Below, in pieces: positions 5,756 through 59,677 of a stretch of DNA of 64,000 bases (its first letter is position 1; every line of letters begins with the position of its first letter). Location: positions 1,488,001-1,552,000 of the forward strand of contig NZ_CP107902.1 of NCBI RefSeq assembly GCF_036013935.1, written 5' to 3'. The notes under the pieces are model-generated. The model searched no databases. It worked only from the letters and a program-made list of their open reading frames with translations, and was not told the DNA's origin. A program made the position numbers and the translations under genes. The DNA is from Streptomyces sp. NBC_00461 (GTDB lineage Bacteria; Actinomycetota; Actinomycetes; Streptomycetales; Streptomycetaceae).

Positions 5756-7198
5756 GTGACTTCTGCGCCCGCCAAGCCCCGCATCCCGAACGTCCTCGCC
5801 GGACGCTACGCCTCCGCCGAGCTCGCCACGCTCTGGTCGCCCGAGCAGAAGGTGAAGCTGGAGCGACAGCTCTGGCTCGCCGTGCTGCGAGCCCAGAAGG
5901 ACCTCGGGATCGAGGTGCCGGACGCGGCGATCGCCGACTACGAGCGTGTCCTGGACACCGTCGACTTGGCCTCCGTCGCCGAGCGCGAGAAGGTCACGCG
6001 GCACGACGTGAAGGCGCGGATCGAGGAGTTCAACGACCTCGCCGGGCACGAGCACGTGCACAAGGGCATGACCTCCCGCGACCTCACCGAGAACGTCGAG
6101 CAGCTGCAGATCCGGCTCTCGCTGGAGCTGGTGCGCGACCGCACGGTGGCCGTCCTGGCGCGCCTGGGCAAGCTCGCGGGCGAGTACGGCGAGCTGGTCA
6201 TGGCCGGCCGCTCCCACAACGTGGCCGCGCAGGCCACCACCCTCGGCAAGCGCTTCGCGACCGCCGCCGACGAGTTGCTCGTGGCATACGGCCGGGTCGA
6301 GGAGCTGCTGGGCCGCTACCCGCTGCGCGGCATCAAGGGCCCAGTCGGCACGGCGCAGGACATGCTGGACCTGCTGGGCGGGGACGCGGCGAAGCTGGCG
6401 GACCTGGAGCAGCGGATCGCCCGGCACCTGGGCTTCTCGCAGGCGTTCACCTCGGTCGGCCAGGTCTATCCGCGTTCGCTGGACTACGAGGTCGTGACGG
6501 CGCTGGTGCAGCTGGCGGCGGCGCCTTCGTCGCTGGCCAAGACGATCCGGCTGATGGCCGGGCACGAGCTGGTCACCGAGGGCTTCAAGCCGGGCCAGGT
6601 CGGTTCCTCCGCGATGCCGCACAAGATGAACACGCGGTCCTGCGAGCGCGTCAACGGTCTGATGGTCATCCTGCGCGGCTACGCGTCGATGACCGGCGAG
6701 CTGGCCGGCGACCAGTGGAACGAGGGCGACGTGTCCTGCTCGGTGGTCCGCCGAGTGGCTCTCCCGGACGCGTTCTTCGCTCTGGACGGTCTGCTGGAGA
6801 CGTTCCTGACGGTGCTCGACGAGTTCGGCGCCTTCCCTGCGGTGGTCGCGCGTGAACTCGACCGCTACCTCCCCTTCCTCGCCACGACCAAGGTGCTGAT
6901 GGGCGCGGTGCGCGCGGGCGTCGGGCGTGAGCTCGCGCACGAGGCCATCAAGGAGAACGCCGTCGCCTCCGCGCTCGCCATGCGCGAGCAGGGCGCCGAG
7001 CGCAACGAACTCCTCGACAAGCTGGCCGCCGACGAGCGCATCCCTCTCGACCGTGCCCAGCTCGACGCCTTGATGGCCGACAAGCTGTCCTTCACCGGTG
7101 CCGCGGCCGACCAGGTCGCCGCGGTCGTCGGCCGCATCGAGGAGATCGTGAAGCAGCACCCGGAGGCCGCGGGCTACACCCCGGGGGCGATCCTCTGA
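5756..7198 (+). CDS. purB: adenylosuccinate lyase PurB
   Basis: A 480-residue enzyme of purine synthesis that splits SAICAR to AICAR plus fumarate and adenylosuccinate to AMP plus fumarate. The fumarase/aspartase signature GSSAMPHKMN is present near residue 285, as are the early RHDVKARIEEF motif and the HKGMTSRDLTEN segment, all in the expected places, and the length fits actinobacterial PurB. Start chosen at GTG 5756 because the protein alignment-like segment TSAPAKPRIPNVLAGRYAS begins there; the longer open frame upstream is non-coding in composition. It is followed at once by a DNA glycosylase gene that may be co-transcribed. Confidence 0.95.
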   Translation: MTSAPAKPRIPNVLAGRYASAELATLWSPEQKVKLERQLWLAVLRAQKDLGIEVPDAAIADYERVLDTVDLASVAEREKVTRHDVKARIEEFNDLAGHEHVHKGMTSRDLTENVEQLQIRLSLELVRDRTVAVLARLGKLAGEYGELVMAGRSHNVAAQATTLGKRFATAADELLVAYGRVEELLGRYPLRGIKGPVGTAQDMLDLLGGDAAKLADLEQRIARHLGFSQAFTSVGQVYPRSLDYEVVTALVQLAAAPSSLAKTIRLMAGHELVTEGFKPGQVGSSAMPHKMNTRSCERVNGLMVILRGYASMTGELAGDQWNEGDVSCSVVRRVALPDAFFALDGLLETFLTVLDEFGAFPAVVARELDRYLPFLATTKVLMGAVRAGVGRELAHEAIKENAVASALAMREQGAERNELLDKLAADERIPLDRAQLDALMADKLSFTGAAADQVAAVVGRIEEIVKQHPEAAGYTPGAIL

Positions 7199-7251
7199 CC
7201 CGCTTCACCCAGGCGGAACTGGAGGCCGCCCGCGACCGCCTCGTCCCGGAC

Positions 7252-7746
7252 GTGGTCGCGGACGGCCTCGGTGTCCTGTTCTGCGGCATCAACCCCGGGT
7301 TGATGACGGCGGCGACGGGCCACCACTTCGCCCGGCCGGGCAACCGCTTCTGGCCCGTGCTGCACCTGTCCGGCTTCACGCCCAGGCTGTTGAAGCCGTC
7401 GGAACAGGGCAAGTTGCTGTCCTACGGGCTCGGGATCACGAACGTGGTGGCGAGGGCTAGCGCGCGGGCCGACGAGCTGAGTGCGCAGGAGTACCGCGAC
7501 GGCGGGCGGCAGCTGGCGCTGAAGGTGGCACGACTGCGGCCGCGCTGGCTGGCCGTGGTGGGGGTGACCGCCTACCGGGCGGCCTTCGACGACCGCAAGG
7601 CCCAGGTGGGGCCGCAGGAGCGGACGATCGGGGAGACGCGGGTGTGGGTGCTGCCGAATCCGAGCGGACTGAACGCGCATTGGACGGCTGAGACGATGGC
7701 GGAGGAGTTCGGGCGGTTGCGGGTCAGGGCGGGTCTGTCTCAGTGA
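7252..7746 (+). CDS. mug: G/U mismatch-specific uracil-DNA glycosylase, Mug family
   Basis: A base-excision repair enzyme that removes uracil or ethenocytosine from mismatches. Motif 1 GINPGL near residue 13 (catalytic Asn), the following HHFARPGNRFWP and the second motif NPSGLNAHW near residue 143 identify the Mug subgroup. GTG 7252 is the first conventional start, but the family-like sequence continues upstream in frame (TRFTQAELEAARDR) to a CTG at 7195 that overlaps the purB stop as CTGA. Either a CTG start or internal GTG initiation must apply. Its 3' end overlaps the convergent next gene by 23 bases. Confidence 0.88.
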   Translation: MVADGLGVLFCGINPGLMTAATGHHFARPGNRFWPVLHLSGFTPRLLKPSEQGKLLSYGLGITNVVARASARADELSAQEYRDGGRQLALKVARLRPRWLAVVGVTAYRAAFDDRKAQVGPQERTIGETRVWVLPNPSGLNAHWTAETMAEEFGRLRVRAGLSQ

Positions 7747-8134
7747 CCACGGCGACGAGCTGGACTTCGTCCGCCTCGTCCCGGTCGGCGACGGCCACGG
7801 CGGCCCAGCGGCCGGTGCCCACCACCTCCCAGCCGTAGGCCACGCGCGCGCGTGCGCTGAGAGTGGCCCACGGCTCCGGTATCTCCTCCCGCTCGGTGCG
7901 CAGCAGAACCGTCTGCAGGTTCCAGGGGGCGGTTTCACCCCAGCGCGGCGCCAGTTCCTCGTAGAGGGCGTCCCGGACCTTCTCGTACTGATCCACCGTC
8001 ACCGCTCGCTCGGCGCCGTCGCCGCCTCTGAGGCCATGACTGCTCTCTAACTCCGCGATGTGGTAGCCGTGTTCCGCCGGAAAGGGGCGGAAGCACAGCT
8101 CTTCGATGCGGGCGATGTGCTGTGCGATGTCCAT
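7724..8134 (-). CDS. conserved hypothetical protein
   Basis: A 136-residue soluble protein I do not recognise by function. It begins MDIAQHIARIEELCF, has no signal or membrane segment, mixes acidic helices in the first half with a Trp-rich beta-like second half ending in VQLVAVVTETDPP, and is probably a small alpha/beta domain. The codon pattern is typical of real genes and the leftward start at 8134 is the first Met after the divergent spacer. It converges on mug with a short overlap and has no apparent operon partner. Confidence 0.7.
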   Translation of the reverse strand: MDIAQHIARIEELCFRPFPAEHGYHIAELESSHGLRGGDGAERAVTVDQYEKVRDALYEELAPRWGETAPWNLQTVLLRTEREEIPEPWATLSARARVAYGWEVVGTGRWAAVAVADRDEADEVQLVAVVTETDPP

Positions 8135-8175
8135 GTGGTCCAGTAAACCGGCCGGCACTGACAATTGGTGAGGTG

Positions 8176-8898
8176 TCAGGCATCCCGGCGCCGCACGCTC
8201 CACACCCCGGCCAGCAGCGCGACCCCCGCCCACAGCCCCGTCACCGCAAGCCCTGTCCACGGTCCGAGCGTGCCGGTCCATGTCTCGTGGAGCGCCACCT
8301 GGCCCGCCCGGTCCGGCAGGACGTCCGCGACGGAACCGGACATGTCGCCGATGACGAAGGAGACGATGAGCAGGAACGGGATGAGGATGCTCAGGGTGGC
8401 GACGCCACTGCGCAGGACGGCCGTCAGTCCCGCCGCGAGCAGCGCCATCAGCGTCAGATAGACCCCGCAGCCGACGACCGCGCGCAGTTCCTCGCTCCAG
8501 CTCAGCCCGTCGGCCTTCACTCCGAGGGCGGCTCTGCCGACGGCCAGACTCACCGCACCGCCCACCAGCCCGACGACCAGCACGGGTACGGCGATCGCCA
8601 CCGCCTTGGCGGCGAACCACCGCCCGCGCCGCGGCACCGCGGCCAGGCTGACGCGCAGGGCGCCGCCCCGGAACTCGGACGACACCGCGGTCGTACCGAA
8701 CGCGATCGCCGCGATCTGCCCGAAGTTGACGCCGAAGAAGACGGAGAACAGCGGGTCGAAGTCCGCTCCGTCGCTGTCGGCGCCGGCGAGGGCCGAGAAC
8801 AGGGTGGTGGCGAGCAGCACGGCGGCGAGGCCGCCGACGAGCGACCGCAGGGTACGGATCTTGAGCCACTCCGCGTGGAGTACGGGCGTGAATTCCAT
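8176..8898 (-). CDS. ABC-2 type transporter permease
   Basis: A 240-residue integral membrane protein with six predicted hydrophobic segments. It opens with the typical ABC-2 exporter sequence ending in LHAEWLKIRTLRS, and its first long periplasmic loop follows residue 40. It is the membrane half of an exporter with the ATPase immediately upstream; the genes are two bases apart (8898/8901), so translation is probably coupled. Such pairs beside a NarL-type two-component system usually export peptides or confer resistance to cell-envelope antibiotics, but the cargo is not shown here. Confidence 0.88.
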   Translation of the reverse strand: MEFTPVLHAEWLKIRTLRSLVGGLAAVLLATTLFSALAGADSDGADFDPLFSVFFGVNFGQIAAIAFGTTAVSSEFRGGALRVSLAAVPRRGRWFAAKAVAIAVPVLVVGLVGGAVSLAVGRAALGVKADGLSWSEELRAVVGCGVYLTLMALLAAGLTAVLRSGVATLSILIPFLLIVSFVIGDMSGSVADVLPDRAGQVALHETWTGTLGPWTGLAVTGLWAGVALLAGVWSVRRRDA

Positions 8899-8900
8899 GG

Positions 8901-9821
8901 TCAGGCCTCCTGGGGCTGTGCGGTGAACTCGGTCTCTGCGCCGGTGAGGTCCAGATACGCCTGCTCCAACGTGCCTTCCTCCGAGGCGAGTTCGAGGACC
9001 GGCACGCCGGCGGCGGAGACGAGGCGCCCGATGTCGTCCACGCGTGCGTGGTCCACGATCCAGTGCCCGTCCACGTGCTCCACCGCGTCGTGTCCGTGCC
9101 GTGCCAGGACGCTCTTGAGGGCGGTGGCGTCCGTCGTCCGGATCCGCACACGTGGCTGCACGCGCGCGTCGATGAACTCCCGCATCGGGGTGTCGGCCAG
9201 CAGACGTCCACGTCCCAGGACCACCAGATGGTCGGCGAACGACGCGGTCTCGTTCATGAGGTGGCTGGAGACCAGCACGGTGCGCCCCTCGCCCGCGAGC
9301 CGGCGCAGCAACGCGCGGATCCAGACGATGCCTTCGGGGTCGAGGCCGTTGGAGGGTTCATCGAGCATGACCACCTCGGGGTCGCCCAGCAGTGCGGCGG
9401 CGATCCCGAGGCGCTGGCGCATGCCGAGGGAGTACGTCTTCACCCGTCGGCGCGCCACCGACGACAGCCCGGCCTGCGCCAGTACCTCGTCCACCCGGCG
9501 CCGCGGGATGCGGTTGCTCGCGGCCAGTGCGCGCAGATGGTCCCGGCCGGTACGGGAGCCGTGCGCGGCGTCCGCGTCGAGCAGGGCGCCGACGTGGCGC
9601 AGCGGTTCGCGGAGCGTGGCGTAGGCGCGGCCGCCGACCGTGGCGGTACCGGAGGTCGGCCGGTCGAGGCCGAGCACGAGCCGCATGGTGGTGGACTTTC
9701 CGGCGCCGTTGGGGCCGAGGAAGCCGGTGACCTTGCCGGGGTGGACGGTGAAGGTGAGGTGGTCCACGGCCCGCCGGGTGCCGTACTCCTTGGTGAGGTT
9801 GTCGACGTCGATTCTGGTCAT
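8901..9821 (-). CDS. ABC transporter ATP-binding protein
   Basis: A 306-residue ATPase partner of the adjoining permease. Walker A GPNGAGKST lies near residue 38, the ABC signature here is LGMRQRLGIAAAL near residue 137, and Walker B VVMLDEPSNGLDPEG follows near residue 155, with the switch His in SSHLM. The final 90 residues form a variable C-terminal domain ending in a putative acidic region. Start at ATG 9821 gives the usual beginning TRIDVDNLTKEYG; open sequence further upstream is not coding. It is divergent from a histidine kinase gene, with about 108 bases between them. Confidence 0.93.
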   Translation of the reverse strand: MTRIDVDNLTKEYGTRRAVDHLTFTVHPGKVTGFLGPNGAGKSTTMRLVLGLDRPTSGTATVGGRAYATLREPLRHVGALLDADAAHGSRTGRDHLRALAASNRIPRRRVDEVLAQAGLSSVARRRVKTYSLGMRQRLGIAAALLGDPEVVMLDEPSNGLDPEGIVWIRALLRRLAGEGRTVLVSSHLMNETASFADHLVVLGRGRLLADTPMREFIDARVQPRVRIRTTDATALKSVLARHGHDAVEHVDGHWIVDHARVDDIGRLVSAAGVPVLELASEEGTLEQAYLDLTGAETEFTAQPQEA

Positions 9822-42401: not shown

Positions 42402-42443
42402 GCGGACTGCGGACTCCGGACTCCGGACTCCGGACTCCGGACT
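42402..42443. repeat. seven-base tandem repeat, six units
   Basis: Two units of GCGGACT are followed by four perfect units of CCGGACT. The array lies in the spacer between the Imm21-like gene and the rhodanese gene, about 80 bases upstream of the Imm21-like start, and is a likely slippage hotspot. Confidence 0.85.
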
Positions 42444-58445: not shown

Positions 58446-58586
58446 CCGCTCACCGTACTCAGGGCCACGTGCACCGACGGGCTCCGCGCCCTGTGATCTT
58501 CACCCCACCTGAGCAGGCGTCACCCGGGACGCGGATCACCCGTAGCGGATGAGGCGGCCGCGGCCGACCTGTGGTGCGGTTCGAGG

Positions 58587-59237
58587 ATGACTATGCGCAG
58601 CCTCCCGAACCCCTTCGACGCGGCGGGGCGAGTGGCCCGGTACGCACTGGGGACCGCCGGCTCGGTCGCCGACCGCGTGGTCCCCGCGGTGACGGCCGCC
58701 GTCCTGGACCGGCTCGACCTGGACGGCCTGGCCGCCCGCATCGACGTCAACCGGATCGCCGACCGCGTGGACGTGATGCGCGTGGCCCGCCGGCTTGACG
58801 TCGACCTCGTCGCCGACCGGGTCGATGTGGATCGCATCGCCGACCGCGTGGACATCGAGCGGGTGGCGGCCCGGGTGGACGTGAACGAGGTCGCCGCCCG
58901 TCTCGACGTCGACAGGGTCGCTGCGCAAATCGACGTCGCCAGGATCGCGGCGCGTATCGACGTCGACCGGATCGCCGCCCGGCTGGACGTGGACGCCGTG
59001 ATCGACCGGATCGACCTGGTCGCGCTCACCAAGGCCGTGCTGGAGGAGATCGATCTGGGCCGGATCGTCCGGGACACCAGCGGCGGGATGGCCGAGGAGA
59101 CGGTCGACGCGCTCCGGCTGAGCAGCGCGCGGGCCGACCGGATGGTGGACCGTGTCGCCGACCGCCTGCTGCACCGACCGGGCGCGGCCCCCAAGGGCAC
59201 CGACGGTCTCGCGCCGCCGCACGGGCAGACACCGTGA
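58587..59237 (+). CDS. nine-residue-repeat protein, unknown function
   Basis: A 216-residue protein built around about ten consecutive nine-residue units (residues 52-142) of the form x-R-I/V-A-x-R-x-D-V, for example DRIADRVDI and ERVAARVDV, corresponding to a 27-base period in the DNA. The first 50 residues (NPFDAAGRVARYALGTAGSVADR) and the last 60 are helical and non-repetitive. No membrane segment or signal is visible. It overlaps the downstream RDD-family gene by four bases (GTGA), so both are made together; a scaffold or docking role at the membrane is only a guess. Confidence 0.8.
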   Translation: MTMRSLPNPFDAAGRVARYALGTAGSVADRVVPAVTAAVLDRLDLDGLAARIDVNRIADRVDVMRVARRLDVDLVADRVDVDRIADRVDIERVAARVDVNEVAARLDVDRVAAQIDVARIAARIDVDRIAARLDVDAVIDRIDLVALTKAVLEEIDLGRIVRDTSGGMAEETVDALRLSSARADRMVDRVADRLLHRPGAAPKGTDGLAPPHGQTP

Positions 59238-59677
59238 CGCGTACGGCGCCGGGCCCCGAGGGCGACACGGCGGGAATCGTGTCACGGTGCCTGGCGGCCC
59301 TGGTCGACGCGATCGTGGTGGCGGGCATCGGCCTCGCCGCATACCTCGCCTTCGGCGGCCTGCGACTGCTCGTCACCGGGCCGCCCTTCCGCATGCCCGA
59401 CCTCTCCGGCTGGCTGACCGGTGTGCTCGGCTGGGCCCTGGCCGTCGTCTACCTGGCTCTGAGCTGGGTCACTTCCGGAGGCACCGTCGGCGACTGGCTG
59501 CTGGGGCTGCGTGTCACCGGCCGCACCGGGCGGCTGCTCGGCATCCCCCGCGCGCTGCTGCGGGCCGTGCTGTGCGTCGTCCTTCCCGTAGGCCTGCTCT
59601 GGGTTCCCTTCAGCCGGCGCCATGCCTCGGTCCAGGACGTCGCCCTGGCCAGCGCCGTGCACTATCACCACTTCTGA
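59234..59677 (+). CDS. RDD-family membrane protein
   Basis: A 147-residue protein with three or four hydrophobic segments. RDD-domain features are GIVSRCLAALVDAIVVAGIGL near residue 15, GTVGDWLLGLRVTGRTGRLLGIPRALLRAV near 85 and PFSRRHASVQDVALASAVHY at the end; the name-giving Arg-Asp-Asp pattern is reduced to RCLAALVD. The family is of uncertain function, with ion-exchange suggested in some cases. GTG start within the stop of the repeat-protein gene indicates coupling and a joint function. Confidence 0.85.
   Translation: MTRTAPGPEGDTAGIVSRCLAALVDAIVVAGIGLAAYLAFGGLRLLVTGPPFRMPDLSGWLTGVLGWALAVVYLALSWVTSGGTVGDWLLGLRVTGRTGRLLGIPRALLRAVLCVVLPVGLLWVPFSRRHASVQDVALASAVHYHHF

Follow-up and report, generated by a model that had tools for sequence, protein, structure and literature searches.

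What a short, highly repetitive protein does beside a membrane protein of the RDD family is the question raised by two overlapping genes of Streptomyces sp. NBC_00461, which lie in the 64,000-nucleotide stretch of DNA analysed here (hereafter, the window). An excerpt of a 2025 paper (PMC12419801) states that what the RDD domain does is unknown and describes its conserved intramembrane site as facing the cytoplasm, and excerpts of PMC4694148 and PMC5445863 name a mycobacterial RDD gene. Among the open-licence PMC papers brought up by searches, no title or abstract start was found that describes the nine-residue repeat.

The Overlapping Gene Pair

The repeat protein gene occupies positions 58587–59237 of the forward strand and encodes 216 amino acids from its first ATG, or 214 from an in-frame ATG at 58593. 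The sequence GAGG at 58583–58586 (forward strand) is the likely ribosome-binding site, spaced 6 nt from ATG 58593 and 0 nt from ATG 58587, and the nearest homologue, P0001 (94%), begins at the equivalent of 58593; because of this spacing and this homologous start, translation more probably begins at ATG 58593 than at 58587. At its other end, the gene shares the bases GTGA (59234–59237, forward strand) with the following frame, its stop codon overlapping the GTG start of an RDD-family membrane protein, just as the initial annotation had read it, and the overlap makes it likely that the repeat protein and the RDD protein are produced together.

The RDD frame (59234–59677, forward strand) encodes 147 amino acids and belongs to Pfam family PF06271, which it matches with 53.8 bits (cut-off 24.1; E 3.3e-14). 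In an alignment of 98, the family residues R18, D25, and D135 each account for 1.00 of the residues once gaps are set aside, and in alignment A4 (96) for 90% or more. Kyte–Doolittle windows over 1.6 start at residues 12–29, 57–64, and 101–109, and these three hydropathy groups agree, by a simple hydropathy test only, with the three transmembrane segments of the RDD family. The genome from which the window comes holds eight RDD matches and a single repeat protein. Two RDD matches of equal score (G000:C1, 63905–64309 on the plus strand and 10310552–10310956 on the minus strand) are equidistant from the two ends of the chromosome, an arrangement that terminal inverted repeats of 64 kb or more would produce.

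The Repeat Protein of the Window

The protein opens with a helix at residues 9–42 (58611–58712, forward strand), predicted by AlphaFold2 with a pLDDT of about 58–78, in a region whose mean pairwise identity is 48% over residues 31–42 and 28% over residues 1–30. Eleven strict nine-residue units follow at residues 43–141 (58713–59009), a degenerate twelfth unit occupies residues 142–150 (59010–59036), and a conserved C-terminal cap with a predicted helix at residues 157–194, homologous to a segment of the single-frame relatives described below, spans residues 155–198 (59049–59180), all on the forward strand.

The tandem nine-residue repeat is real and conserved. Within residues 43–150, 54 of 99 residues are identical to the residue nine positions away, whereas the count averaged 14.5 and peaked at 29 when the residues of this segment were shuffled 20,000 times. 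Tandem Repeats Finder (TRF) reports a period of 27 bases, with 9.8 copies and 70% matches, at 58731–58994; as neighbouring units have just 14–22 of 27 bases in common, the conservation of the unit is clearest at the protein level. The whole-gene dN/dS values against four relatives (0.33, 0.30, 0.43, and 0.31), which describe the whole gene and not the repeats alone, are consistent with purifying selection. The initial annotation had described ten consecutive units in the register Ile/Val at position 3, Ala at 4, Arg at 6, and Asp-Val at 8–9, a regular 27-base periodicity, and ordinary helical sequence at both ends. The repetition, the register, and the DNA period are borne out, the count becomes eleven strict units plus the degenerate twelfth, and helices are indeed predicted at both ends, but the C-terminal one is no ordinary sequence, being a cap conserved across the family.

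Pairing with RDD Proteins within Streptomyces and Beyond

Both proteins were used to search a sample of 295 Streptomyces genomes. The repeat protein matched 23 of the 295 genomes at E ≤ 1e-3, 17 of them strongly (E ≤ 1.3e-24) and six weakly (E ≥ 1.3e-5), and the RDD protein matched 91, again 17 strongly (E ≤ 1.1e-24), with the next match at 3.7e-6. The strong matches to the two proteins fall in the identical 17 genomes, and the RDD gene lies directly downstream of the repeat gene in all 17 loci. Because the two sets coincide, the partner RDD is a distinct subfamily that never occurs without the repeat protein in the 295-genome sample. The six genomes left out as weak (G036, G051, G058, G137, G265, and G280; E 1.3e-5 to 4.6e-4) hold no strong partner RDD, and a profile search found no RDD at their loci, L018–L023.

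A wider contig scan yielded at least 46 loci, of which one (L073) was removed as a chance match, its reading frame having been judged by eye, to leave 45. These include loci from Geodermatophilus, Blastococcus, Nocardioides, Terrabacter, Rhodococcus, Pseudonocardia, Kribbella, and Acidimicrobiales; 18 of the 45 are from Streptomyces, and at least four (L032, L036, L038, and L042) appear to be shared with the genus set, so that, because of these overlapping loci, the two sets are not independent. The RDD gene comes next in the same direction in 37 loci, counting one in which the RDD frame looks truncated (L063), and repeat and RDD form a single fused reading frame in five (L055, L060, L065, L067, and L068); altogether, 42 of the 45 loci are tandem or fused, an arrangement that the window pair likewise shows. 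In one locus (L061, Geodermatophilus aquaeductus, 6846–9074), the RDD gene adjoins on the other strand, which may reflect an inversion or a fault in the assembly. The overlap itself, in the form NTGA with an in-frame start on the stop codon, recurs in 15 of the 17 genus loci and 27 of the 37 wider tandem loci.

Fused forms are abundant. Of 8000 proteins scored against the fused L065 protein as query, 1914 matched at E ≤ 1e-3, and the best 120 of these 1914 all carry PF06271 and all match the fused cap profile; where the source gives a fused relative a name, it is RDD family or YckC-like protein. In a phylum-wide sample, the fused query matched 130 of 396 genomes at E ≤ 1e-3, many via the RDD part alone, and, as read from the table, 24 of 396 had a match at E ≤ 1e-10 reaching into the repeat part. 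In the samples searched, these counts show the repeat protein and the RDD protein to be a near-obligate pair, tandem or fused, across Actinomycetota, and their genetic association is strong. The initial annotation had proposed the pairing and had asked whether homologues might occur widely without an adjacent RDD gene; the neighbourhood search gave no such picture, just two of the 45 wider loci (L050 and L071) being ones in which no RDD gene was found.

The pairing also bears on whether the repeat might be slippage noise at the DNA level, without function. A 27-base tandem period does exist, but the bases of adjacent units have diverged while the key residues are kept, and many actinobacterial genera carry the repeat, tied to one partner; this reading is contradicted on both counts and is highly improbable. 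Two further candidates were tried and rejected: anti-phage defence, as PADLOC gave no match for three proteins, and a plasmid-borne pair, as tblastn of the repeat protein against a plasmid collection found nothing.

The Nine-Residue Unit in Split and Fused Proteins

Units were located in 120 split and 120 fused proteins by a pattern that admitted just D, E, N, or H at position 2 and just hydrophobic residues at positions 1, 3, 6, and 7, and left positions 4, 5, 8, and 9 free; the figures for positions 1, 2, 3, 6, and 7 are therefore partly built in, and degenerate units are missed by the count. The consensus of the 120 split proteins is [VI]-D-[LV]-[DN]-[AR]-[VI]-[AV]-[AD]-R, and the overall unit can be written [VI]-D-[LVP]-[DN]-[AR]-[VIL]-[AVL]-[AD]-R, in tandem and in variable number. 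Aspartate occupies position 2 in 98% of split and 97% of fused units, among the four residues that the pattern admitted there, and arginine occupies the pattern-free position 9 in 90% and 83%, respectively. Among fused units, 23% have proline at position 3. As a guide to the size of a solenoid turn, the likeness between units shows a weak preference for a lag of two units, in the fused proteins only.

The number of units ranges by pattern count from 2 to 19 in split and from 2 to 26 in fused proteins, and eight near relatives compared by a stricter count have 11 to 13. Such a wide range is what would be expected if the array were a mere flexible or rod-like spacer, whose unit number drifts freely, leaving the cap and its RDD partner as the only parts that count. 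The retention of Arg9 at its pattern-free position, that of Asp2 within the choice of residues set by the pattern, and the whole-gene dN/dS of about 0.3–0.4, a value for the whole gene rather than the repeats, speak against a mere spacer, which we regard as unlikely. A reading of the array as a scaffold or sensor is put first, since the conservation of Arg9 is stricter than a spacer appears to require.

Predicted Structure of the Array

In the AlphaFold2 model of the window protein (mean pLDDT 72.5, pTM 0.25), each unit forms a helix of seven residues followed by a two-residue break (45–51, 54–60, and so on to 135–141), and the array is flanked by the helices at 9–42 and 157–194. In the model of the fused protein P0230 (mean pLDDT 81.0, pTM 0.69), seven-residue helices run from 29–35 to 74–80 with a longer last helix at 83–90, the repeats being of low to middling confidence (pLDDT blocks of about 46–81 over residues 21–90), and a cap helix at 92–129, with ten-residue pLDDT means of 79–94, leads into the RDD helices. 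An aspartate N-cap followed by proline at N1 marks the start of a helix. The occurrence of both in the unit therefore speaks against one continuous helix through the array, and each unit is likely, according to the models, to be a short helix and the array a chain of such helices. The rod, solenoid, or helical spacer suggested in the initial annotation all fit these models; with a pTM of just 0.25, the model of the window protein does not fix the packing and global shape of the array.

The repeat protein shows no transmembrane-like peak, its highest 19-residue Kyte–Doolittle mean being 1.14. The hydrophobic moments of the eleven repeat helices point alike, at angles of −3 to 31 degrees, the partner is a membrane protein, and positions 1, 3, 6, and 7 are mostly hydrophobic (as the unit pattern required), all of which would suit an array that, in the manner of 11-residue lipid-binding repeats, lies as a carpet of short amphipathic helices on the cytoplasmic leaflet and anchors or curves the membrane around the RDD protein. 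However, the individual moments are mostly not above those of shuffled sequences (2 of 11 below 0.05), the net charge of −5 over residues 43–150 would be poorly suited to acidic lipids, and the same helix faces could equally pack against each other, so that a membrane-surface carpet seems rather improbable.

A Conserved Cap Links the Split and Fused Forms

As the repeats alone could mislead, the comparison of split and fused proteins was limited to the segment that follows the repeats. In hhalign, the split cap (window residues 155–198) aligned with the segment before the first transmembrane helix of the fused proteins with a probability of 97.8 and an E-value of 8e-13. At E < 1e-3, the split cap profile picked up 34 of the 120 fused proteins and the fused cap profile 51 of the 120 split ones, so that the larger part of each set (86 and 69 of 120, respectively) escaped the cross-search, and none of 120 shuffled fused proteins matched the cap profile. 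D156, R162, R177, D184, V187, D192, R193, L195, and R197 are conserved at 90% or more in a split alignment of 67. At the level of sequence profiles, a conserved cap that closes the repeats is thus shown to be common to the split and fused forms.

Likeness to Known Repeat and Membrane Families

The alpha-solenoids of the TPR, HEAT, and Armadillo type are built from helical units of about 30–45 residues. The window repeat resembles them in its tandem helical units of variable number and differs in its single predicted helix per nine residues, far from a 30–45-residue unit, and no TPR, HEAT, or ARM family of Pfam was listed for the window proteins and the relatives scanned. The 11-residue lipid-binding repeats of proteins such as alpha-synuclein and the apolipoproteins form a continuous amphipathic helix; short-period amphipathic helices are shared with the window repeat, whose period is nine and which has a predicted break in each unit. 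The RTX nonapeptide repeats, described in an excerpt of PMC3034196 as glycine- and aspartate-rich and calcium-binding, likewise have a nine-residue, Asp-rich unit but are rich in glycine, whereas the window unit has no position with a dominant glycine and is helical in its model, which sets it apart from the RTX class as that excerpt describes it. As for calcium binding, which stays conceivable for the window repeat, one pattern search for an EF-hand-like loop found none among the A3 members examined.

No Pfam or NCBIfam model exceeded its cut-off on the repeat protein of the window, which Dzip-like_N and PG_binding_4 touch below their Pfam cut-offs, and a Pfam scan of six split relatives gave no match over cut-off on the repeats; P0020 matched Dzip-like_N at E 2.5e-4, below cut-off. 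When 53 fused proteins were compared with Pfam at E ≤ 1, DUF7935 (17), Dzip-like_N (13), HU-HIG (9), and EF-hand_7 (4) appeared, with a best E-value of 1.7e-4, and a precomputed Pfam list assigns HU-HIG to P0295 and DUF7935 to P0309, two of the 120 fused proteins. These domain matches are tentatively read as reflecting repeat composition. P0046 is named Asp23/Gls24 by one source. Against solved structures, the split model (pTM 0.25) gave no PDB match in Foldseek and no chain in VIA, the split repeat profile found none by sequence, and the fused profile gave seven rows, all aldehyde dehydrogenases, with a best E-value of 0.17.

The partner protein is a member of the PF06271 RDD family, and in the window a gene of its own encodes the N-terminal repeat half. 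The VanZ–RDD fusions mentioned in the same excerpt of PMC12419801 likewise join an RDD membrane module to another domain, the partner here being a helical-repeat array, of which that excerpt says nothing. By fold, the RDD domain (59234–59677; residues 120–311 of model m6b6210860d0f) is similar to chains of 7t92, a peroxisomal ubiquitin ligase complex, and by profile it matches the Pex2_Pex12 Pfam model weakly in both search directions, always below the curated cut-offs. A resemblance of the RDD domain to the membrane domain of the peroxins Pex2/10/12 is accordingly offered as a lead. The RDD profile gave 13 rows against PDB sequences at E ≤ 10, led by Frizzled-4 at 0.0033, and none of the 13 is a peroxin, which speaks against the lead at the sequence level.

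Proposed Working and Genomic Neighbourhood

The reading that we consider the probable one, with room for doubt, is that the two genes encode the halves of a bipartite membrane protein, in which a detachable cytoplasmic array, docked through its cap near the first RDD transmembrane helix, would act as a scaffold or sensor. Each unit is predicted to be a two-turn amphipathic helix that starts after the conserved aspartate and tolerates proline at its first helical position. The repeat protein would sit in the cytoplasm, and its cap helix would dock close to where RDD transmembrane helix 1 begins, the place at which it is covalently attached in the fused proteins. A cytoplasmic array held by its cap is inferred because the protein has no transmembrane-like segment, the repeats of the fused forms precede RDD helix 1, and the conserved RDD site is said to face the cytoplasm in the available text of PMC12419801. 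The array could then be a scaffold or sensor of variable length, delivering a ligand or partner to this cytoplasm-facing site and thereby regulating the RDD protein. A more far-reaching version, which we hold to be doubtful though conceivable, is that the repeat forms a new, very short alpha-repeat class, with one Asp-capped two-turn helix per nine residues, and serves as a cytoplasmic antenna of tunable length by which the RDD domain, a bacterial relative of the RING-peroxin membrane domain, is gated or fed.

Neighbouring genes were clustered over the 45 loci by a base-composition rule and one representative of each cluster was compared with Pfam; many of the 45 loci are from Streptomyces, and the resulting counts are not independent. 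They comprise DUF7144 (17), MFS (13), PPK2 (8), P-type cation ATPase (7), SulP (7), DAGK-domain (6), SHOCT with PLDc_N just below cut-off (6), and DUF1269 (5) proteins, and the recurrence of DUF7144, PPK2, P-type cation ATPase, SulP, and MFS neighbours hints at envelope or ion homeostasis. In the window, the pair is surrounded by genes for an EamA transporter, two hexapeptide-repeat proteins, one of them closest to gamma carbonic anhydrase, below the cut-off of that model, and a VTT-domain DedA-like protein. As the four window neighbours scanned include neither DUF7144 nor PPK2, the hint does not come from the window locus. Elsewhere in the window, at 42403–42443, the 7-base unit CGGACTC is repeated in tandem (5.9 copies, 97% matches).

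Another reading takes the RDD half to be a Na+/H+ antiporter of the Halobacillus type, with the repeat protein as its regulatory subunit. An excerpt of PMC5996927 (2018) reports Na+(Li+,K+)/H+ antiport by a Halobacillus RDD protein, and the P-type cation ATPase cluster of seven of the 45 loci would be in keeping with it. Of the four indispensable residues named in that excerpt, however, D154 (D135 here) and R129 (R110) match, whereas A139 stands in place of D158 and P105, with R106 beside it, in place of R124, in an ungapped reading by offset rather than an alignment. We hold an antiporter with a regulatory subunit to be distinctly unlikely.

The array would represent a very short helical unit for which the window protein and the split form have no curated family over cut-off, no sequence relative in the PDB, and no Foldseek PDB match. 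The near-obligate presence of this soluble partner, separate or fused according to species, provides a handle on RDD function, and the conserved cap can be mutated.
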